Of a DNA stretch of 64,000 nucleotides, positions 1,032 through 15,224 are shown in pieces. The notes under the pieces were generated by a model that searched no databases, was not told where the DNA came from, and saw only the letters and a program-made list of their open reading frames with translations. The translations under genes and the position numbers were made by a program. The stretch comes from an uncultured Agathobaculum sp. (GTDB lineage: Bacteria > Bacillota > Clostridia > Oscillospirales > Butyricicoccaceae), in NCBI RefSeq assembly GCF_944384695.1, contig NZ_CALWUQ010000003.1, positions 1-64,000 of the forward strand, written 5' to 3'. The stretch's first letter is position 1. The number at the start of each line of letters is the position of its first letter.

Positions 1032-3161
1032 ATGACACAGGCAATCTGGGAACAGGGCTATACACAGAACCGCGAGCTGTCATGGCTACAATTTAATGCG
1101 CGCGTATTGGCCGAAGCGGAGGACGACGCCGTGCCGCTGTTGGAGCGGTGCAAATTCCTTTCGATTTTTACCAGCAATCTGGATGAATTCTTTATGATCC
1201 GCGTGGGCAGCCTGTGCGATATGGCCGCGGTGGATAAGGACCATGTGGATAACAAGTCCGGCATGACCGCCAAGGAGCAGCTGCGGCATATCTATGCCGC
1301 GGTCGAGCCGCTGTATGCGCGCCGCGATAAGGCGTTTGCCGATGTGGATGCACGGCTGCGCGCCGAGGGGCTGCGCCGCCTCTCCGTGCGTGATTTGGAG
1401 CCTGCGGAGCAGAAGTACATCAAGCAATATTTTAAGAATGTCATCGCGCCCGTCCTTTCCCCGCAAATCGTGGATGCGCACCATCCCTTCCCGCATCTGG
1501 AAGGCAAGGTGCTGCATATTGCCGCGCTGCTCGGTCACAAAAAGAGCGAACGCTTAGGACTGCTGCCCGTTCCGGCCTCGCTGCCCGCGCTGGTATTCCT
1601 GCCGGGCGCGGAAAAGCGCTACGTACCGATTGAGGATATTCTGCTCGAATACACCGGCCACGTGTTTGAAATGTACGACGTGCTGGAAAAAACCGTGTTC
1701 TGCGTCACGCGCAACGCGGATATCAACCCGGATGACGAAACCTTCGGCGCGGAGGAGGGCGACTTCCGCACCAAGATGGAAAAGCTGCTGCGCCGCCGTC
1801 GCCGCATGGCGGTCGTGCGAGTCGAGCTGACCCGCCCCATCAGCGACCATTTCACCGAATATTTCCGCAAGCGCTTTGACGTGACCGATGCACAGATTTT
1901 CCTGTCGCGTCAGGCGCCTCTTCAGATGAGCTACGCCTTTTCGCTGGGGGAGCATTTCCCGGAAAAACAGCAGGCCGCCCTGTCCGACCCGCCGTTTTCT
2001 CCGCAGCAGCCCGCCATGCTGCCCGCGGGACAGAGCCTGCTCAAGGCCGCGCTCAAGCGCGATATCCTGCTTTCCTACCCATATGAATCTATGGAGCCGT
2101 TTTTGCAGATGATTCGCGAAGCGGCAAACGACCCTGCCGTGTTGTCCATCCGCATCACGATTTATCGGCTGGCGCGCAAAGCCAAGCTGGTCGAGTATCT
2201 GTGCGCCGCGGCGGAAAACGGCAAGGATGTGACCGCGCTCATCGAGCTGCGCGCCCGCTTTGACGAGCAGAACAACATCGACTGGTCCGAGCGCATGGAG
2301 GAAGCGGGCTGCAAAATCATCTATGGCTTCGAGGATTACAAGGTGCACTCCAAAATCTGCCTGATTACCCGGCAGGAGCGCGGCACCGTGCGCCACATCA
2401 CACAGGTCGGCACGGGCAATTACAACGAAAAGACCGCCAAGCAGTACACCGATGTGTCGCTCATCACCTCGGATGAGTCCATCGGCGCGGACGCGGGTGC
2501 GTTTTTCAACAACATGGCGTTGGGCAACCTCGAAGGACGGTACAACCGTCTGCTGGTCGCGCCGAGCAGCCTGAAAAACAACATCCTCGCCCTAATGGAT
2601 GAGCAGATTGCCCGCGGCAGCGAGGGCTATATCCTGCTCAAGTTCAACTCACTGACCGATATCGACATCATCCACAAGCTGCGCGATGCTTCCTGCGCGG
2701 GCGTGCACATTGAAATGATTGTGCGCGGCATCTGCTGCCTGCTGCCGGGCGTGCAGGGCCATACCGAGAACATCACGGTCACCAGCATTGTCGGCCGCTT
2801 TCTGGAGCATTCCCGTATTTTTGTGTTCGGCCGCGGCGCAGAGGAAAAAATGTATATCTCCTCAGCCGATATGATGACCCGCAACACCGAGCGCCGCGTT
2901 GAGATTGCCTGTCCCATCGACTCGCCCGAAGTGCGCGCACGGCTGCACGACATTCTGTATGCCATGCAGCATGACACTGTGAAGGCGCGTGTGTTGCAGC
3001 CGGACGGCACCTACTGCAAAAAACCGCCCGTGCCCGACCCCATCTGTGCGCAGGTGCTGCTGATGCAGCAGGCCATCGAGCAGGCCCGTGAGCAGGCCGC
3101 GCATCCTGCGCCTCCCGAGCCGGGCTGGCGTAAGCTTCTGAACCGGCTTCTGGGCCGGTAA
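1032..3161 (+). CDS. ppk: Polyphosphate kinase 1
   Basis: A 709-residue protein, close to the usual ~690 of Ppk1, which reversibly polymerises the ATP gamma-phosphate into inorganic polyphosphate. The N-terminal domain begins NRELSWLQFN, typical of the family. Both conserved histidines are seen: His439 in VHSKICL (autophosphorylated in the family) and His593 in LEHSRIF. Two upstream in-frame ATGs exist at 981 and 1023. I chose 1032 because AGGGGG at 1017-1022 sits nine bases before it, whereas 1023 has no spacing. The gene stands alone with its own promoter and terminator. The tail of a recombinase frame on the opposite strand overlaps its 3' end by about 300 bp. Confidence 0.95.
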   Translation: MTQAIWEQGYTQNRELSWLQFNARVLAEAEDDAVPLLERCKFLSIFTSNLDEFFMIRVGSLCDMAAVDKDHVDNKSGMTAKEQLRHIYAAVEPLYARRDKAFADVDARLRAEGLRRLSVRDLEPAEQKYIKQYFKNVIAPVLSPQIVDAHHPFPHLEGKVLHIAALLGHKKSERLGLLPVPASLPALVFLPGAEKRYVPIEDILLEYTGHVFEMYDVLEKTVFCVTRNADINPDDETFGAEEGDFRTKMEKLLRRRRRMAVVRVELTRPISDHFTEYFRKRFDVTDAQIFLSRQAPLQMSYAFSLGEHFPEKQQAALSDPPFSPQQPAMLPAGQSLLKAALKRDILLSYPYESMEPFLQMIREAANDPAVLSIRITIYRLARKAKLVEYLCAAAENGKDVTALIELRARFDEQNNIDWSERMEEAGCKIIYGFEDYKVHSKICLITRQERGTVRHITQVGTGNYNEKTAKQYTDVSLITSDESIGADAGAFFNNMALGNLEGRYNRLLVAPSSLKNNILALMDEQIARGSEGYILLKFNSLTDIDIIHKLRDASCAGVHIEMIVRGICCLLPGVQGHTENITVTSIVGRFLEHSRIFVFGRGAEEKMYISSADMMTRNTERRVEIACPIDSPEVRARLHDILYAMQHDTVKARVLQPDGTYCKKPPVPDPICAQVLLMQQAIEQAREQAAHPAPPEPGWRKLLNRLLGR

Positions 3162-4703
3162 AAATAAAAAATCAGTGAAAAGCGTCGGTTTTCCGGCGCT
3201 TTTTATATGCAAACACAAAAAAGCCGTCACTTTCGTGACGGCTTTTACTGGTGGAGCACAACGCGACAAATCCGAACCTTCCACCTGCGAAAGTGAAATG
3301 GTTTCTGTACCCTCTTTATAATTAAATATCAAGGTAATTTTATCATCATAAACATATACCGCGTTTAAAAACGAATCGATTAAAATGCGCCGATGATTTT
3401 CTTTTTTCATATCTAAATCACAGAAACGAAGCAACCAAGCGATCAGGTCCTCGCGCGAAATACTTGGTTTTTTAAGCTTTTCCTTTGCAATCTCATTTTC
3501 CAGTTTTTCTTGTTGCTGCTCCAACTCCGTCATGCGGCGCTGTGTAGTATCGTTAAAGATTCCTGCCTCTATTGCCTTCAGCAGATTAGCAAGCCGCTTA
3601 TGAATATCCGCTTGTTGTGTGTATAGTTTTGGCAATAGTACGCTATCTTTATCGATCTCTTTCACTGCCAGATCTGCAATGCGCTCAATCATCGTATCAT
3701 TCCACAGCAAGTGTATCATCTGATTAACCACCAAATCTTCAATCAACTGCTTGCGAATCGCTTTTTTCCTGCAACCCTGTTTGCACTTAGCTGCACTGCA
3801 TTTGTAGTAGTAATGCTTGATCCCTGTGTGGCTACGACCACTTTCTCCAGCCATTGCTTTTCCGCACAATCCACAAAACAATTTGCCTGTCAATAAGTAT
3901 GGTTCTGTTGCCTTTGCGCTTGCCGGTGCTCGTTGATTGCGTGCCAACCGCTGTTGTACCATCTCAAACAAGCTTTCCGAAATAATTTGTGGCATACCAC
4001 CCGGCGTCACTGTATTGCCATATCGATATTCGCCCAGATAACGCCGATTTTTGAGCATAACGCTGAAGCTGTTCGGAGAAAACGGCTTACCTTGCTGTGT
4101 TGTGATACCACGTTCGTTCATAGATCGCTGAATAGAACGAATTGTTTCACCTTCCGCATATCGTTCAAAAATTTCCCGGACGATCGGTGCGGTGACCGGA
4201 TCAATTTGAAAATGTTGGTTTTCATCCGCATAATATCCAAACGGCATGGTTCCACCGTTATACTTGCATTTCAGCGCATTTTCTGTTAAGCCACGACGAA
4301 CTTTTAATGCAAGTTCGACCGAATAGTATTCGTCCATGCCCTCTAAGAGCGATTCAAGAATGATCTTTTCCGGTCCGTTTGTGGTGGGTTCAAGCGTTGA
4401 AACAACAACAACTCCGTTTTGCAACAACTGTCGCTTGTAATATACAGAATCATATCGATTGCGCGCAAAACGATCGCCTTTCCATACCAACACAACAGAA
4501 AACTGTTTTTTTGCGCTGTCCGTGATCATGCGCTGAAATTCGGGGCGTCGATCTGTCCGCGCAGAGATCGCACGGTCAATATAACGCCCTATCACATTGT
4601 AACCTTGTTTCTCAGCGAAGTTTTGACATTCCCGGAGCTGACCTTCAATGCTTTCCTCCCGCTGGTTATGCGAAGAATAGCGGGCGTAAATGACGGCATT
4701 CAT
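2862..4703 (-). CDS. Large serine recombinase with read-through tail
   Basis: A site-specific serine recombinase. The N-terminal resolvase domain carries the YARYSS motif (catalytic Ser10) and ends near residue 150. A recombinase domain follows (PFGYY, then the SPNSFSVML region), then a zinc ribbon (CGLCGK ... CSAAKCKQGC) and a coiled-coil. The ATG at 4703 has a strong GGGGGG-type site. Homology-like sequence ends near VEGSDLSRCAPP, exactly at the left attachment repeat (about 3255). The frame then runs without a stop through the repeat and antisense through ppk1 to 2862, adding about 130 unrelated residues. The original stop was probably lost at the integration junction. Whether the enzyme still works is unknown. 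Confidence 0.85.
   Translation of the reverse strand: MNAVIYARYSSHNQREESIEGQLRECQNFAEKQGYNVIGRYIDRAISARTDRRPEFQRMITDSAKKQFSVVLVWKGDRFARNRYDSVYYKRQLLQNGVVVVSTLEPTTNGPEKIILESLLEGMDEYYSVELALKVRRGLTENALKCKYNGGTMPFGYYADENQHFQIDPVTAPIVREIFERYAEGETIRSIQRSMNERGITTQQGKPFSPNSFSVMLKNRRYLGEYRYGNTVTPGGMPQIISESLFEMVQQRLARNQRAPASAKATEPYLLTGKLFCGLCGKAMAGESGRSHTGIKHYYYKCSAAKCKQGCRKKAIRKQLIEDLVVNQMIHLLWNDTMIERIADLAVKEIDKDSVLLPKLYTQQADIHKRLANLLKAIEAGIFNDTTQRRMTELEQQQEKLENEIAKEKLKKPSISREDLIAWLLRFCDLDMKKENHRRILIDSFLNAVYVYDDKITLIFNYKEGTETISLSQVEGSDLSRCAPPVKAVTKVTAFLCLHIKSAGKPTLFTDFLFLPAQKPVQKLTPARLGRRRMRGLLTGLLDGLLHQQHLRTDGVGHGRFFAVGAVRLQHTRLHSVMLHGIQNVVQPCAHFGRVDGTGNLNAALGVAGHHIG
3178..3203 (+). terminator. Terminator of ppk1
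   Basis: AAAAGCGTCGG pairs with CCGGCGCTTTT around a TTTT loop (one G-T pair), 16 bases after the ppk1 stop. Confidence 0.8.
3211..3254. repeat. Left attachment repeat (attL-like) carrying the tRNA-Val terminator
   Basis: This 44-bp block matches 15110-15153 except for one extra A in the A-run and one A/G change. It contains a hairpin (AAGCCGTCAC, loop TTTC, GTGACGGCTT) identical to the tRNA-Val terminator at the other end, plus CTGGTGG, the complement of the tRNA CCACCAG end. I read it as the chromosomal half-site left by integration next to the tRNA. Ppk1 lies outside it and the recombinase inside. Confidence 0.75.
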
Positions 4704-5523: not shown

Positions 5524-6606
5524 TTATCCTCGAATAACATTAAGAAGGTCATAATAGAAAAACGTTCTATTCCGAGCCTTTCCATCAGAATAAAGAATTC
5601 GTTCCTCGGTCAATATGTTCAAATATCGTGTAGCAGTAGCAGGCGGAATATCTGTACGCTGTGTGACTATCGAAGTAGTGATGACAGGGTATTCATACAA
5701 CAAATTAATAAGATCGACAACTTTATTGCTTCGAATTAGTTCCTTTGCATGAACCAAATCGATCTCGTAGAGGTCATTAATACGATCTACAATGGTGATA
5801 TATTTGCTGCACTGCTGCTCTACAGTTTTCAGAAAGAAATTGATCCAAGACCCCCAGTCGTTTCGTGTACGAGTGCCATTAAGTAAATCATAATATTTGT
5901 ACTTATCACGTTCAAGCGCCTCGCTGATGAAAAAGCATGGCAACGAAATCTGATTCTGCTTGTAAAGATATAGCGGAATCAAAATCCGTCCAACGCGTCC
6001 ATTGCCATCCATAAAAGGATGGATAGTTTCAAATTGGGCATGCAGTATAGCTGTTCTCACCAGAGGACGAAGCGTGTCGGATGGGGCGTTCAAGTACTCG
6101 ACAAAGTTGTTCATCAACTCAGGGACTTTGCTTGGTACAGGAGGCACATAGGAAATTGTTTTCCCATGACCGATATAATTTTGTTCAGTTCTGAAGCAAC
6201 CGGGAATTGTAGATTTGTTTCTACGAACATTCCCTTCAAGGAGTTCCTTATGCAGCGATTGGATAAAATCAACCGAGAATTTATTTGCACGCAGATACTT
6301 ATAGCCACTATTTGCTGCCAACAAGTAGTTGCGTACCTCTAAAAGATTTTTATCCTTATCACTTGGATTGACTTGATCTACCAAGACACCATCAAGGGTT
6401 GCCTGCGTTCCTTCCAAAAGAGATGACGCCAGAGCCTCCTTTTGCTGTAAAGTTGGTAGAAACCAATTACGATCGAGCTTGCTACTGTCTAACTTGCTCT
6501 TATAGACCTCTAAACGCGCCGTCGCATCTATCAGGGCCTCCATGTAGACCGAAGAGTTTAATGCATCAGTAGCGATCGGAAGAAGTTTGGCCTCAAAAGC
6601 ATCCAT
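5524..6606 (-). CDS. Fic-domain protein with C-terminal winged helix, class II self-inhibited
   Basis: A 360-residue Fic protein, a family that usually transfers AMP to a hydroxyl side chain of a target protein. The complete active-site motif HPFMDGNGRVGR starts at His196. An N-terminal inhibitory motif SSLLEG (residues 61-66, Glu65) precedes it, which fits class II Fic proteins whose own helix blocks ATP. Residues ~300-350 (TSIVTQRTDIPPATATRYL) look like a winged helix-turn-helix. The ATG at 6606 follows a GGAGG site and a near-consensus promoter that contains a long palindrome, so autoregulation is likely. No antitoxin neighbour is seen, consistent with an in-cis inhibitor. Base composition is AT-rich like the rest of the left arm. 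The target is unknown. Confidence 0.9.
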   Translation of the reverse strand: MDAFEAKLLPIATDALNSSVYMEALIDATARLEVYKSKLDSSKLDRNWFLPTLQQKEALASSLLEGTQATLDGVLVDQVNPSDKDKNLLEVRNYLLAANSGYKYLRANKFSVDFIQSLHKELLEGNVRRNKSTIPGCFRTEQNYIGHGKTISYVPPVPSKVPELMNNFVEYLNAPSDTLRPLVRTAILHAQFETIHPFMDGNGRVGRILIPLYLYKQNQISLPCFFISEALERDKYKYYDLLNGTRTRNDWGSWINFFLKTVEQQCSKYITIVDRINDLYEIDLVHAKELIRSNKVVDLINLLYEYPVITTSIVTQRTDIPPATATRYLNILTEERILYSDGKARNRTFFYYDLLNVIRG

Positions 6607-6921: not shown

Positions 6922-8778
6922 TTACGAACGGTCTTCCAGTACGACAAACGGCGAGCGCAGCACCTTGGAATTCTTGAGCTTGACGGCGTGCTTGCCCTTG
7001 GGCGCGCCGCCCGCGCGCAGCTGCAAACGGAAGCAATTCTGTGCGGTCAGGAACTCGACATGAATGGACATGTCCTGCTTGACCGTGCCCTTGCGCAGCA
7101 GCATGTACTGCTTGAGGTCGAACAGGCCAATGTCGCCCTTCTCGCCGACCGCCGCCATGTGGTCGGTCTCAATGATCGGCTTGCCGTACAGCGTCGCATA
7201 CGGCGTGCCCGATGCGCCCGTGGGCGGCAGGTACACCGGCACGCCGCCCGTGCCGATCGGCAGCGTCAGGAACGGCAGCTCCTCGGCAAGGTCGGGGTGC
7301 ATGACCCAGACCGCGTTGGTCTTGCAGCGCGGCAGGATGCGGCCATACATACGCGCGATGTTCTGGAAGGTCAGCGTTTTGTCCTGCGCACTCTCCTTGT
7401 CCACAGTCACGAGGTTCGGCGCGTGCAGGATGCCCAGCGGCTTGCCCACGCCGTCGCCGTCCACCACCGCGCCCTCGAGCAGACGGTTGGCCGCGGTCGC
7501 CATCGCGTTGTTGAGCAGGCCGGACATAAACGGCATGTCCTCGAGCGCCTCATCCGTGATGTAGATGAACGCCATCAGCTTTTCAAGGTCGATCTTGGTC
7601 TCGTAGAACTTGGGCTTGCTGGCGGCGACCGTCGCGGCCTCGCTCGCCCAGTACGCCTGCACGCCGCCGTACACGCTCTCGGACACGTCGGTTTCGTCAC
7701 AGGTCATAAAACGCACCGCGTTTGCCGCCGCACCCGACGTGTAGCTGTCCACGCGGGACAGGATAGGTGTCGCATCCGCGCGATCCGTGCTCGCGCGGTT
7801 GAGCTGACTGAGCGCCACGACCAGAATGCCGTGCGCCTGCGCCATCTCGTGTAGCGCGAGCGAAATGTTGGTCACCTGTTCGGTGCGGTTGCGACCGGCG
7901 GCGCGAATGAGCTGCAAATAGTCGATAAACACCACCCGGTGCTGCCGCGCCAGCGCGGTCGCCAGAATATCCTGTACGCCCCAGCCGGACGCGGGAATCA
8001 GCTCCATCTGGCTTTCTAAGACTTCCTTTTTCCACTTGGCCGCGCGCTCCCACTCCTCAGGCGTCATTTCGCGGCGGTTGATATGGCCGAAGTCGATGAT
8101 ACAGCGGCTCGCGACCAATCGGTTGGTCAGCTTGGCGGTACTGGTCTCAAGGCTGTAAAAGCCGACCTTGTCCTGCCGCCCCATGTGCGCCGCCATTTGC
8201 AAGGCAAGCGCTGTCTTTCCCGCGGACGGACGTCCGGCAACAATCACGAAATCGCCGTAATCTGTATACAGCCGCCGGTCGAGCTTATCAAAGCCCCAGC
8301 TGATAAACCGGCGTTTTTCGCCCTGCTCGCTGAAAAACTGCATCAGTGCCTGCTGCATGGTCACGACCTGTGTGCGGTTCTTTTCGCTCAAAATCTCGCC
8401 TGCCTGTCCGAGCAGATCGCGCGCCTTATCGCTTGTGCGCACCTCGGCAAGCTCGGCGGCCAGCGTCCGCAGCCGGGTGACGCGCGTCTGCTCCTGCATG
8501 GCAGATATGTAGGTGCGCCAGCCGAACGAAGTCGGTGTGACGTCCATGCACTGCATCAGCAGGTCGTTATACTCCGCGCCGCACATGCCGCGGATCGTGA
8601 CCGCGTCCACCGGCCGCCCCGCGCCAAACAGCTTGACCGCGGCATTGTACACCGTGCGCAGTTCGGGAACGGTGAAGTCCTCCGGTCGCGTGCGGTACAG
8701 CAATTCGCCCGCGATCGACGGATCAACCAGCAGGCAGCCGATCACGCTGTACTCTGCATCGAGTGTCGCTTTTACCAA
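6922..8778 (-). CDS. In-frame fusion of phage DnaB-type helicase and HK97-type major capsid protein
   Basis: Residues 1-340 are a replicative helicase: the N-terminal domain, then Walker A AGRPSAGKT (181-189), Walker B VVFIDYLQL (282-290) and ALSQLNRAS (322-330). The usual continuation with the arginine finger is missing. From about residue 341 (RVDSYTSGAA) the protein becomes an HK97-fold major capsid protein with EAATVAASKPKF, an MSGLLNNAMATAANRLLEGA helix and a VEFLTAQNCFRLQLRAGG ending. The join lies near 7750-7772 with no stop or frame change. An in-frame deletion between the early and late phage modules explains it. The helicase lacks its last motifs and the capsid lacks its N-terminal arm, so neither is likely to function normally. 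An assembly join is the alternative. Confidence 0.85.
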   Translation of the reverse strand: MVKATLDAEYSVIGCLLVDPSIAGELLYRTRPEDFTVPELRTVYNAAVKLFGAGRPVDAVTIRGMCGAEYNDLLMQCMDVTPTSFGWRTYISAMQEQTRVTRLRTLAAELAEVRTSDKARDLLGQAGEILSEKNRTQVVTMQQALMQFFSEQGEKRRFISWGFDKLDRRLYTDYGDFVIVAGRPSAGKTALALQMAAHMGRQDKVGFYSLETSTAKLTNRLVASRCIIDFGHINRREMTPEEWERAAKWKKEVLESQMELIPASGWGVQDILATALARQHRVVFIDYLQLIRAAGRNRTEQVTNISLALHEMAQAHGILVVALSQLNRASTDRADATPILSRVDSYTSGAAANAVRFMTCDETDVSESVYGGVQAYWASEAATVAASKPKFYETKIDLEKLMAFIYITDEALEDMPFMSGLLNNAMATAANRLLEGAVVDGDGVGKPLGILHAPNLVTVDKESAQDKTLTFQNIARMYGRILPRCKTNAVWVMHPDLAEELPFLTLPIGTGGVPVYLPPTGASGTPYATLYGKPIIETDHMAAVGEKGDIGLFDLKQYMLLRKGTVKQDMSIHVEFLTAQNCFRLQLRAGGAPKGKHAVKLKNSKVLRSPFVVLEDRS

Positions 8779-9485
8779 TGCTCATACCTCCGTTCCTCTT
8801 TGGTCGGTGCAGACGGTTTGGGCGGCGTGGCGCTGCCCTCCGGCTCATCCTCCCAGCGGCGGGCGTTGAGCCATGTTGCGGGGTACGGGATGAACTGCCC
8901 GCCGTCCTTTGTCCACTCCGGCAGGCGCTTTTGCCAGTCCAGCGCCCGCAGCATGTCCTCCACCAGCGCCGCATCAGGGTTGAGTTTCGCAAAGGCCTTT
9001 CTGGCGTCGGCCTTGCTCACCTTGCGTGGGTACGCGCCCCAAAAACGGTCGAAAAGGGGAAGTATATCTGTATTTCTTTTATCTGGTCTTTTATCTGTTC
9101 CTTTAATACATTTCACCGTTTGGTGGAATGTGTCCACGCATTCGGTTGATTGCATTTCACCATTTGCGTAAATGCAAAGAACCAAATCGGTAACTGTGTA
9201 CCACTTGGTCTGATCGCGTCCATCCTCGTTATAGCAGGCTGTCTCGATCAATCCGTTGGCAACGCAGTTGCGTATGATCCGCTCTATCTGGCGTGGGGTG
9301 AGATAGTCAAACAAATCCTCTTTGCAAAAGTCCTGCAAGCTGGAATATGTCCAATACTTTCCGTCCCGCAGATTTTTTTCCCGCGCACGATTCCATACAA
9401 CCCAGTACCAAATATGGTGTACGAATGCCGCCTCATCCCCGTTTCCGGTGATGCTGGCGATAGCCGTATTAAACTGGAACATCAT
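8772..9485 (-). CDS. Phage replication initiation protein with N-terminal winged helix
   Basis: A 237-residue protein overlapping the helicase start by seven bases and overlapping the upstream HTH gene as ATGA, so the three are one operon. Residues 1-110 (WTYSSLQDFCKEDLF, LTPRQIERIIRNCVANGLI) look like the helix-turn-helix of phage replisome organisers. The C-terminal part, LFDRFWGAYPRKVSKADARKAFAKL through FIPYPATWLNARRW, is the region commonly found in phage proteins that load the helicase. It probably bound the phage origin and recruited the helicase. With the helicase broken, its present use is doubtful. Confidence 0.75.
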   Translation of the reverse strand: MMFQFNTAIASITGNGDEAAFVHHIWYWVVWNRAREKNLRDGKYWTYSSLQDFCKEDLFDYLTPRQIERIIRNCVANGLIETACYNEDGRDQTKWYTVTDLVLCIYANGEMQSTECVDTFHQTVKCIKGTDKRPDKRNTDILPLFDRFWGAYPRKVSKADARKAFAKLNPDAALVEDMLRALDWQKRLPEWTKDGGQFIPYPATWLNARRWEDEPEGSATPPKPSAPTKEERRYEHW

Positions 9486-11551: not shown

Positions 11552-11748
11552 TTGATACCCTCCCCAAAACCGAACAAGTGTTTGATTCCATAATACACCG
11601 TATATCGGTTTTTGGCAAGAGCAAATCAATATATTGTATATCATTCACAAAATATCGGTGTTCAAATTGAACACATGAAAAGCGCCCGCCCCAGTGCGCT
11701 ACCACCGGAACGGGCAAAGATGGAGTGTCTCACATATCCTCCAACACC

Positions 11749-11768
11749 ATTATACAAGATTGTATAAT
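11749..11768 (+). promoter_or_regulatory. Palindrome over the -10 of the Ltp lipoprotein gene
   Basis: ATTATACA and TGTATAAT form a perfect 8-bp inverted repeat with a 4-nt centre, and its right arm supplies a TATAAT -10 (11763-11768). No good -35 is seen. A second palindrome, TGTTCAAATTGAACA, lies at 11659-11673. Either could be an operator. Confidence 0.5.
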
Positions 11769-11796
11769 ATTGTCAATCTTTGAGGAGGAAAGGGAA

Positions 11797-12261
11797 ATGA
11801 AACGCACACACCTTTATCTGCTTTGTCTGGTCTTGCTGCTGACGTTGACGGCCTGTGGCGGAACGACCCAGTCTACGACCGATGAGCAGTCGCCCGCAAG
11901 CATCGATGCCATTGAATCTGCCGAGCCGGTCGGGGAAACAGATCAAGAACCGGAAGAACCCGCCGACACCCTGACCATGGGGCAGAAAAATGCACTGGGC
12001 TCTGCAGAAAGCTATTTGTCCATCATGGCATTTTCTCATAGCGGCTTGATTGGGCAGCTCGAATATGACGGCTATACCACTGAAGAAGCGACCTATGCTG
12101 CAGATAACTGTGGTGCCGACTGGAATGAGCAGGCCGCTAAATCAGCCGAAAGCTATCTGGAAATGATGTCGTTTTCGCGTCAAGAATTGATCGACCAACT
12201 TGTGTATGATGGCTTTACGCAAGAGCAAGCCGAATATGGCGTCACGGCCGCAGGTTACTAA
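11797..12261 (+). CDS. Ltp-family lipoprotein, probable superinfection exclusion protein
   Basis: A 154-residue lipoprotein. A signal peptide with lipobox LTAC precedes the lipid-modified cysteine near residue 20. An acidic linker follows, then two copies of a ~47-residue helix-turn-helix-like repeat (QKNALGSAESYLSIMAFSHS and QAAKSAESYLEMMSFSRQ). This is the architecture of Ltp of phage TP-J34, a lysogenic lipoprotein that blocks DNA injection by related phages. I chose the ATG at 11797 after GAGGAGGAAAGGG; 24 further in-frame codons upstream have no site. Expressed from a lysogen it would protect the host cell surface. The family assignment is firm; the exclusion role here is inferred. Confidence 0.85.
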   Translation: MKRTHLYLLCLVLLLTLTACGGTTQSTTDEQSPASIDAIESAEPVGETDQEPEEPADTLTMGQKNALGSAESYLSIMAFSHSGLIGQLEYDGYTTEEATYAADNCGADWNEQAAKSAESYLEMMSFSRQELIDQLVYDGFTQEQAEYGVTAAGY

Positions 12262-12272
12262 ATAAACCCCGC

Positions 12273-12306
12273 AGACCACAACCGAACACTGTTTTTGTTG
12301 TGGTCT
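12273..12306 (+). terminator. Terminator-like hairpin after the Ltp gene
   Basis: AGACCACAAC pairs with GTTGTGGTCT around a 14-nt loop, followed by ATATTTT. Nearly the same sequence recurs after the DUF4236 gene at 13759-13795. Confidence 0.65.
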
Positions 12307-12411: not shown

Positions 12412-13746
12412 ATGGGCTTTCGCTTTCGCAAAAGCTTCAAAATCGCGCCGGGTGTTCGTGTCAATCTGAACAAGAAAAGCGCCAGCATCTCTGTTGGCAC
12501 CAAAGGCGCGCGCATCACAAAGAGTACTTCCGGACGCACTACCACGACCGTCGGCATACCCGGAACTGGTATCAGTTACAGCCAAAGTCATACCTCCAAG
12601 CGCAAAACTTCCTCAACCGTAAATAATGCTAGCGCTGATACCCTGCCTACTGATAATAAGCGCAAAGAACGTGTAAAGTACCCTCCCCGTAAGCCAGTAG
12701 CCTATACACCACCCACTGAAAAACCTATGACACCAGATGCTGCGCCAGCAAAAAAAGATCGTGTGGAGTACTCTCCACGTAATCCAGAGGATCATAAGCC
12801 ACCTTCCGCAAACCCTGCCGCAAAATCCACACTACCTATACCCGCGCCACAGCCACAGCCAAACAAACCCGGAGCCGCCTATGCATTGCTCAAGGTGCTT
12901 GGCATCATTCTGGTGGCACTCGGCCTGTTCCTTTCGATTGCCTCGGTCATCGGCGGTTTTATCTTTACCGCAATCGGCTGCCTTATCCTGCAAAAGCGGG
13001 CACGCATGATAGAAGCCGCAACCGGACAAACAGTTTCTAACCCATTCCGACGGCGATGGCAGATCGTCGTCTCAGTGGTCTTTGTCTTGCTGGCGGCTGC
13101 CGGTGCATTAACGCCCGACCCGGTCAGCAAAATCTCGCTGAACGGACTTGTGTCCACTCAGTTGGAAGTACCCGAAGCGACCAGCATATCATACAAATAT
13201 GAGCCTGCGGACGCATCGACTGACAGCATCACCTGTGAAAGCTCGGATACTGCGGTCGCGACCGTCGAGATTAGCTCGATTGAAAACGGCGTCGTGAACT
13301 GTCTCGTCACCCCATTGTCTGCCGGTGATGTGACCATCAGCTGCAAGAGCGGCTCGGCAGAAGCCCCCGTACTCGAAATGAGCGTCACCGACCCGGCCGC
13401 AGAGGCCGCTGCCAAAGCTGAGGCAGAACGCAAAGCCGCAGAAGAAGCCGCTGCCAAAGCAGAAGCCGAGCGCAAAGCTGCCGAAGAGGCCGCCGCTGCG
13501 CAGGCCGAAGCCGAGCGCAAAGCCGCAGAAGAAGCCGCAGCAGCACAGGCCGCAGCCGAGCAGCAGGCCGCAGAAGAAGCTGCCGCACAGTCAGCAGCGG
13601 CACAGACCAACACCCAAACCGTTTACATTACACCATCCGGAAAGCGCTATCACTTATCATCGACCTGTGGTGGCAAAAACTCATACGCCGTTGACATTAG
13701 CGAGGTCGGAGGTCGTACCCCTTGCAAAAAGTGCGCTGGCGGCTGA
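12412..13746 (+). CDS. DUF4236 multidomain membrane protein of the prophage lysogeny region
   Basis: A 444-residue protein. The order is a DUF4236 domain (residues 1-~55: FRFRKSFKIAPGVRVNLNKK, then VGIPGTGISYS), a proline/lysine-rich linker, two membrane helices (~160-195 and ~215-235), an Ig-like segment (~240-325), an alanine/glutamate coiled-coil built from repeated KAEAERKAAEEAA units (~330-395), and a C-terminal motif with YHLSSTC and CKKC that could bind a metal. I know no experimental function for DUF4236. Proteins of this kind are often seen near integrases and HTH genes of mobile elements. The adjacent Ltp gene suggests a surface or exclusion role, but that is inference. Confidence 0.75.
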   Translation: MGFRFRKSFKIAPGVRVNLNKKSASISVGTKGARITKSTSGRTTTTVGIPGTGISYSQSHTSKRKTSSTVNNASADTLPTDNKRKERVKYPPRKPVAYTPPTEKPMTPDAAPAKKDRVEYSPRNPEDHKPPSANPAAKSTLPIPAPQPQPNKPGAAYALLKVLGIILVALGLFLSIASVIGGFIFTAIGCLILQKRARMIEAATGQTVSNPFRRRWQIVVSVVFVLLAAAGALTPDPVSKISLNGLVSTQLEVPEATSISYKYEPADASTDSITCESSDTAVATVEISSIENGVVNCLVTPLSAGDVTISCKSGSAEAPVLEMSVTDPAAEAAAKAEAERKAAEEAAAKAEAERKAAEEAAAAQAEAERKAAEEAAAAQAAAEQQAAEEAAAQSAAAQTNTQTVYITPSGKRYHLSSTCGGKNSYAVDISEVGGRTPCKKCAGG

Positions 13747-13758
13747 TATAGAGATCCC

Positions 13759-13795
13759 GCAGACCACAACCGAACACTGTTTTGTTGTGGTCTGC
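13759..13795 (+). terminator. Second copy of the terminator-like hairpin
   Basis: GCAGACCACAAC pairs perfectly with GTTGTGGTCTGC and is followed by ATTTTT. The stem and the CGAACACTGTTTT loop copy those of the hairpin at 12273-12306, with one T fewer. Confidence 0.75.
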
Positions 13796-13853
13796 ATTTT
13801 TACACCTACTCAAATCGAACAAACGTTCTTATTTTAACCAAGGAGGAAATAAA

Positions 13854-14978
13854 ATGCCCGAACAAGCCAAGAAAAAATACACCTACAAATACGTCAAGGC
13901 GATCACAGTCGGGCATAAGCCGGACGGCAAGCCCATCCGCAAATACATCCGCGAAAACAACAAGGCTGTTTTCGAGCAAAAGGTGCGCTATTACCAAAAC
14001 CTCAACGCTCGCGGCGTGCAGATCGTCGGCCGGTCGCTCACGGTCGAGCAATGGGCATGGCAGTGGTATCACACCTACAAAGAGCCGAAGATCGGCGCGA
14101 GCCAGCGTATCAACTACGAGACCAACCTCAAGCGCCATATCCTGCCGGTGATTGGTTTCATGGTAGTCAATGCCGTGCGGCCGTACCATCTGCAGCAGCT
14201 CGTCAACGATGCCCGGCGCGAGGACGGCCAGCCGCTGGCGCAGGGCACGGTGCGACAGATCCTGTACACACTACGGCAGATTTTCGAGCAGGCCGAGATC
14301 AACGGTCTGATTGAGGTCACGCCCTGCCGCCGCATCGAGAACACCGCGACCGGCAAGACTGCGCGGCGCGCACTGACCCGTGAAGAAGAAGCGCTCGTCC
14401 GCAAGGTAGCCGCCCGGCACTGGGCGGGGCCGTGGGTGCTGCTCATGTTGGACTGCGGCCTGCGGCGCGGAGAGACTGTGCCGATCGGCAAAGCCGACCT
14501 TTGCAAAGACGGCACGATGCTGCGGATCAGCAGCGCCGTCACCTACGCCGAGGGCAATCAGGCCAAGCGAAAAAGCACCAAAACGGCAGCCGGAGAGCGG
14601 TTTGTTCCCATGCCACCCACGTTGCTCTCCCAGCTGGACAGCTCCGGACGGTATTTCTTTCACGGGCAAAACGGCAGGATGCTCACGCTCACCCACCTGC
14701 GGCGCATGTGGGGCAGCTTCCACCGCGCATGTGACCGGGAAGCCGGTGCTAAGCTGTACCGCAACAAGATCATCGAGCACGCCTTTGACCCAGCGATCAC
14801 ACCCCACTATCTCCGGCACACCTATTGCACCAATCTGCGCCGTCAGGGCGTCGACCTGAAAACCGCACAATATCTCATGGGACATGCCAGCATCACCACA
14901 ACGGCGAATATCTACGATCATGTCGACATGGACGACATCGCTCAACTCGGCCTGCATGAAGCACCGAAAAACACCTGA
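13854..14978 (+). CDS. int: Phage-type tyrosine integrase
   Basis: A 374-residue integrase. It has an N-terminal arm-binding region rich in Lys/Tyr, a core-binding SAM-like domain (LTVEQWAWQWYHTYKEPKIG and following), and a catalytic domain with the first Arg in CGLRRGE, HYLRHTYCTNL (His-x-x-Arg), GHASITTTANIYDHV (His and the Tyr nucleophile). The ATG at 13854 follows AAGGAGGAAATAAA. It is 132 bp from the right attachment repeat and beside tRNA-Val, the usual arrangement for a tRNA-integrating phage. All catalytic residues seem present, so it may still be active. Confidence 0.92.
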   Translation: MPEQAKKKYTYKYVKAITVGHKPDGKPIRKYIRENNKAVFEQKVRYYQNLNARGVQIVGRSLTVEQWAWQWYHTYKEPKIGASQRINYETNLKRHILPVIGFMVVNAVRPYHLQQLVNDARREDGQPLAQGTVRQILYTLRQIFEQAEINGLIEVTPCRRIENTATGKTARRALTREEEALVRKVAARHWAGPWVLLMLDCGLRRGETVPIGKADLCKDGTMLRISSAVTYAEGNQAKRKSTKTAAGERFVPMPPTLLSQLDSSGRYFFHGQNGRMLTLTHLRRMWGSFHRACDREAGAKLYRNKIIEHAFDPAITPHYLRHTYCTNLRRQGVDLKTAQYLMGHASITTTANIYDHVDMDDIAQLGLHEAPKNT

Positions 14979-15109: not shown

Positions 15110-15153
15110 AAAACACAAAAAGCCGTCACTTTCGTGACGGCTTTTGCTGGTGG
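15110..15153. repeat. Right attachment repeat (attR-like) overlapping the tRNA-Val 3' end
   Basis: Near-identical partner of 3211-3254. It includes the tRNA-Val terminator hairpin (15119-15145) and the CCA end of the tRNA. Because the terminator is inside the duplicated core, the tRNA keeps a working terminator after integration. Confidence 0.75.
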
Positions 15154-15224
15154 GGTTGGCGGGGCTCGAACCCACGACCTCTCGCGTGTGAGGCGAACGC
15201 TCTGACCAGCTGAGCTACAACCCC
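15148..15224 (-). tRNA. tRNA-Val (anticodon CAC)
   Basis: A 77-nt cloverleaf with encoded CCA. Acceptor GGGGTTG pairs with CAACCCC; the D arm is GCTC...GAGC; the anticodon arm TTCGC-CTCACAC-GCGAG gives anticodon CAC; the T arm contains GTTCGAGCC. The 3' end lies at 15148 inside the attachment repeat. A terminator hairpin follows at once. Confidence 0.95.

Follow-up and report, generated by a model that had tools for sequence, protein, structure and literature searches.

Organization of the prophage element

The window analysed here, which is the whole stretch of 64,000 nt at the start of contig NZ_CALWUQ010000003.1 from an uncultured Agathobaculum sp., a gut bacterium, contains an 11.9-kb prophage element (11,899 nt between the att repeats) in which part of a replicative helicase and part of a major capsid protein are encoded by a single open reading frame (Table 1). 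The att repeats lie at a tRNA gene with an integrase adjoining, and the packaging and virion genes carried by related prophages have been lost, features by which cryptic prophages are recognized. This defective prophage no longer has its lytic genes but retains its cargo and the genes for lysogeny. Similarity to phages ends again just past the capsid gene. In addition to the genes listed in Table 1, the element includes several repressor-like genes.

Table 1 Features of the defective prophage and its chimeric gene (positions in the window)
Feature	Position	Strand	Remarks
Serine recombinase frame	2862..4703	-	Runs through the att repeat into ppk antisense
att repeat, ppk end	3218..3254		37 nt, of which 36 match the tRNA-Val copy
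SoFic-type Fic protein	5524..6606	-	PADLOC SoFic, E 6e-102; beyond the second breakpoint
Remnant (~90 nt) of the next gene after the capsid in the related prophage L010	6815..6904	-	Similarity ends at ~6815, the second breakpoint
Chimeric ORF, 618 codons	6922..8778	-	TTG start; Pfam and PHROGs match both halves
Capsid part	6922..7764	-	HK97-type major capsid protein (420 residues) from residue 141 to the stop; first 140 residues missing
Deletion junction; both sides share 2 nt (TA)	7764..7765	-	From base-by-base alignment to the closest homologues
Helicase part	7765..8778	-	First 338 of the 423 residues of a DnaB-like helicase; Walker A, Walker B and motif H3 kept, 339-423 lost
Phage replication-initiation protein	8772..9485	-	Open frame; immediately precedes the chimeric ORF
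Ltp-type surface lipoprotein (PF07553)	11725-12261	+	In the lysogeny region
Tyrosine integrase	13782..14978	+	98% identical to a prophage integrase at the same tRNA-Val in genome G026
att repeat, 3' end of tRNA-Val	15117..15153		tRNA at 15148-15224, minus strand

In size, the element (11.9 kb), with its integrase and regulators, would be compatible with a satellite of the phage-inducible chromosomal island type, but no packaging-redirecting gene was recognized in it, and the genes that it shares with others are those of full prophages.

Several of the retained genes merit individual comment. The Ltp-type lipoprotein belongs to a family known for superinfection exclusion, while the Fic gene has only distant relatives in other genomes of the genus. 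A relative of the serine recombinase (78% identity) lies directly beside ppk and the att core in contig G026:C28, and the ppk end of the element therefore has a serine recombinase and the tRNA end a tyrosine integrase. A DUF4236/Big_2 gene (12412-13746) is flanked by 37-nt direct repeats (12259-12295 and 13747-13783, 89% identity), and looks as if it had been inserted or duplicated along with an intergenic stretch.

A helicase-capsid chimera in one reading frame

The 618-codon frame is read from 8778 to 6922 on the minus strand, stops interrupting the plus-strand translation. An initial sequence-only reading of this DNA had reported a helicase and a major capsid protein fused in one open frame between 6922 and 8778. 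Pfam confirms this fusion, detecting a DnaB N-terminal domain (residues 5-91), DnaB_C (160-358, a nominal extent) and Phage_capsid (370-601) in the same frame; the position is retained, and the strand, previously unstated, is now given as minus. Searches against PHROGs similarly assigned a DnaB-type helicase to the first part of the ORF and an HK97-type capsid protein to the last. The start codon overlaps the stop of the upstream replication-initiation gene, a GGAGG motif ∼8 nt upstream of the start is a plausible ribosome-binding site, and nothing resembling a terminator was found between the two genes.

The helicase half displays 97-98% identity to intact 423-residue genes of two other Agathobaculum prophages (L006 and L009), the first 341 residues of the ORF aligning to both at 97%. 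Like other DnaB-like phage replicative helicases (PHROG 19), residues 1-338 contain Walker A (GRPSAGKTA) and Walker B (VVFIDYLQL) motifs, which are intact as originally described, as well as motif H3 (ALSQLNR). The chimera differs from members of this family in lacking motif H4 (DLRESGQIEQDAD) and the C-terminal 85 residues, as the sequence turns to capsid past residue 338. Motif H4 and the segment that follows it, which can be aligned to DnaB structures, fall beyond the join. In DnaB the C-terminal segment bears the arginine finger.

Residues 339-618 of the ORF are 97% identical to the end of an intact 420-residue capsid protein in a further Agathobaculum prophage, L010. The kept region, residue 141 to the C-terminus, contains the core capsid domain (Pfam Phage_capsid positions 44-277 of 280). 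The likeness to HK97-fold major capsid proteins (PF05065, PHROG 10) is thus confined to the last 280 residues of the chimera, which differs from these proteins in the loss of the first 140 residues, comprising the N-terminal coiled region and the start of the capsid domain. The sequence encoding this lost region (the N-terminal delta/scaffold region and N-arm) is absent from the whole genome, and no protease gene remains beside the capsid half. The earlier division of the ORF into a helicase (residues 1-340) and a capsid protein (341-618) was therefore correct as to the fusion and the identity of its two parts. The boundary, however, lies at 338/339, and both proteins are truncated, to 338 of 423 and 280 of 420 residues, respectively.

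Position and authenticity of the junction

In a base-by-base alignment the closest helicase homologue matches the window up to ...ACACCTA and the capsid homologue from TATCCTG..., which places the join at 7765/7764 with a 2-nt overlap, inside the interval 7750-7772 proposed from the sequence; it follows from this position that the ORF consists of helicase residues 1-338 and capsid residues 141-420. When a 241-bp query across the join was used, the nearest helicase homologues ended at base 127 (one reached base 135 with mismatches) and the capsid homologues began at base 126 or 127. Both sides were spanned by the window only, every other genome matching one side.

The genome is assembled in 123 contigs and holds another related prophage whose helicase is 93.5% identical in DNA, and an assembler might have joined two phage loci. 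Such an artefact is very unlikely as the source of the fusion: the two sides have a mere 2 nt in common, far below the overlap used by any assembler, and this should be incapable of producing an assembler join. Furthermore, the first 20 kb of the window contain no N, the remainder of the capsid gene and a parent-type terminase occur nowhere else in the assembly, and both ends of the element are intact, as are the att repeats. The helicase of the second prophage (G000:C9:27911-28938; L002 and L003) is itself disrupted by the loss of 1 nt at codon 251, unless this reflects a sequencing error.

The fusion was sought in the genomes of the family, in IMG/VR, in INPHARED phages and in PLSDB plasmids, and none was found besides that of the window. 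The 22-mer across the junction occurs in the window's own genome only among 87 family genomes, with no match in IMG/VR, and the comparison of related genomes suggested by the initial reading accordingly returned no fused gene in the other 86. Among the loci bearing the helicase (146) or the capsid (105), counts that include those of the genome itself, none from another genome has both domains in one frame. A literature search for Agathobaculum prophages provided nothing useful.

Origin of the chimera

Two prophages from IMG/VR, G094 (44.5 kb) and G095 (45.9 kb), encode the helicase and the capsid in two distinct genes that share one strand and the same order, with similarity to the window halves of 72-77% for the helicase and 90-91% for the capsid. 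The helicase of G095 is interrupted by one stop, giving two overlapping pieces. In G094, where this gene is intact, the two breakpoints stand 14,857 nt apart. In L010 the terminase large subunit, portal and protease genes directly precede the capsid gene, which is followed by those for the head-tail adaptor, tail sheath and tape-measure protein. Elsewhere in the window's genome neither a parent-type terminase (best match 31%) nor the capsid N-terminus was found, and the parent-type sheath is represented only by a relative at 28% identity. The separate genes of G094 and G095, ∼15 kb apart, the gene order of L010 and the missing terminase and capsid N-terminus therefore support the view, put forward in the sequence-only reading, that an in-frame deletion brought the early and late modules together and removed terminase, portal and protease.

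The length of the open frame is not surprising, as each half consists of coding sequence, and joins made at random points between the two intact genes remain in frame 33% of the time. Chance and use of the product had both been offered as explanations for the 618 open codons; the frequency of in-frame joins upholds the first, while the second is unsupported.

The ORF is very probably a by-product of the decay of a temperate Agathobaculum phage, through an in-frame deletion of ∼14.9 kb and the subsequent loss of late genes. The parent would have been a ∼45-kb prophage at the tRNA-Val beside ppk, with genes in the order integrase, regulators, replication initiator, DnaB-like helicase, ∼15 kb containing terminase, portal and protease, HK97-type capsid, connector and contractile tail. 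Illegitimate recombination at the 2-nt overlap may then have joined codon 338 of the helicase gene to codon 141 of the capsid gene, with the loss of the intervening ∼14.9 kb; that the frame survived was a one-in-three chance. A second event would have taken the late genes after the capsid, leaving the 11.9-kb element with its integration, repression and cargo genes. It should be noted that the other examined genes of the element are all open frames; the element is thus not visibly rotting, which counts against decay.

Among the sampled prophages none has both halves at 97%, and those with a 97% helicase bear other capsids. The exact parent is therefore unsampled, and illegitimate recombination between two different prophages, one contributing the helicase end and the other the capsid end, has to be weighed as a minor rival. 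Consistent with such a cross, the closest helicases (L006 and L009) and the closest capsid (L010) come from separate genomes and differ in their partner modules, the prophages that carry both genes reach only 77% and 91% similarity to the respective halves, and the genome itself has the second related prophage on contig C9. The C9 helicase, however, differs by ∼6.5% from that of the window, and C9 is therefore not the donor. In addition, a simple deletion in the architecture of G094 and G095 would account for the order and strand of the two parts, and one event is enough. While a two-prophage origin is thus unlikely, a single deletion within one phage would explain the arrangement.

Selection on the frame and fate of the product

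Pairwise dN/dS against the nearest relatives, a measurement proposed for each half in the initial reading, was 0.04-0.08 for the helicase half and 0.11 for the capsid half. These ratios are low but resemble those between intact phage genes; they therefore provide no proof of constraint after the deletion and are uninformative on the time since it occurred. On these grounds low dN/dS was rejected as a sign that the product is used. Codon changes private to the window, tallied over both halves as simple differences, comprised 30 synonymous and 8 nonsynonymous substitutions. Together, the dN/dS values and the 30:8 ratio fit a young deletion that most of the changes would predate, a pattern indistinguishable from that expected under continued selection. 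The deletion was probably recent.

In an AlphaFold model of the fused protein, residues 1-320 are mostly confident while pLDDT is <50 for residues 327-412; in the intact capsid protein, folded as a control, much of the matching stretch scores 70-80. The alignments behind the two models were shallow and unlike in make-up, and the models are therefore weak evidence. A structure search with the fused model returned DnaB structures among the 50 matches listed.

It had been suggested that the product may be used and that an ATPase scaffolded on a capsid fold would be new. This proposal is not borne out: a function of the hybrid is unlikely, as motif H4 and the later DnaB segment are gone, capsid residues 1-140 are gone and model confidence is low around the join. 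Moreover, one in three random joins keeps the frame, and no second genome carries the fusion. The product would probably neither unwind DNA nor assemble into capsids.

A different possibility is that the hybrid has been domesticated, being made and kept, for example, as a dominant-negative protein that interferes with the hexameric helicase or the capsid shell of related phages entering the cell. The ORF is an open frame in the early operon behind the replication gene, with the plausible ribosome-binding site described above and no terminator-like site found in between, and the small number of nonsynonymous changes would also be expected under selection on the product. The element retains other genes of the phage-resistance type, SoFic and Ltp, and chimeric prophage proteins can block phages, as exemplified by StfE2 of Escherichia coli e14 (PMC12529663). 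Nevertheless, domestication is very unlikely given that the fusion occurs in one genome only, that chance alone keeps the frame in one case out of three, that model quality is poor near the join and at the beginning of the capsid half, and that essential parts are missing from both halves. There is similarly very little likelihood that the hybrid is made and favoured by selection because it interferes with phages, whether its helicase N-terminal and ATP-binding part co-assembles with the incoming helicase or its capsid C-terminal part poisons shells. The locus reflects ordinary prophage decay, and the hybrid protein is so far without sign of activity.

Comparison with known chimeric prophage genes

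The locus illustrates clearly how the erosion of a prophage gives rise to chimeric frames that are long and open; annotation pipelines would label such frames 'helicase' or 'capsid'. Were the frame kept by selection, it would represent a chimera of an early and a late gene, of which no second case turned up here, and possibly an anti-phage protein; nothing found here calls for this reading.

Fused genes that arise when cryptic prophages lose genes are known from earlier work. In prophage Φ427.1 of Streptococcus pyogenes emm4, gene loss left MEW427-02770, a fusion of parts of three phage genes (PMC8115907). The Agathobaculum chimera resembles this case in that the loss of prophage genes has left parts of phage genes fused, although the host and the genes are different, the partners in Agathobaculum being an early gene for replication and a late one for structure. 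In the defective prophage e14 of E. coli, StfE2 is likewise encoded by a chimeric ORF with parts of two phage genes, and its effect against phages has been demonstrated (PMC12529663). This tail protein, however, is made by PinQ through site-specific inversion within two genes, whereas the Agathobaculum chimera derives from a random deletion between unrelated genes.
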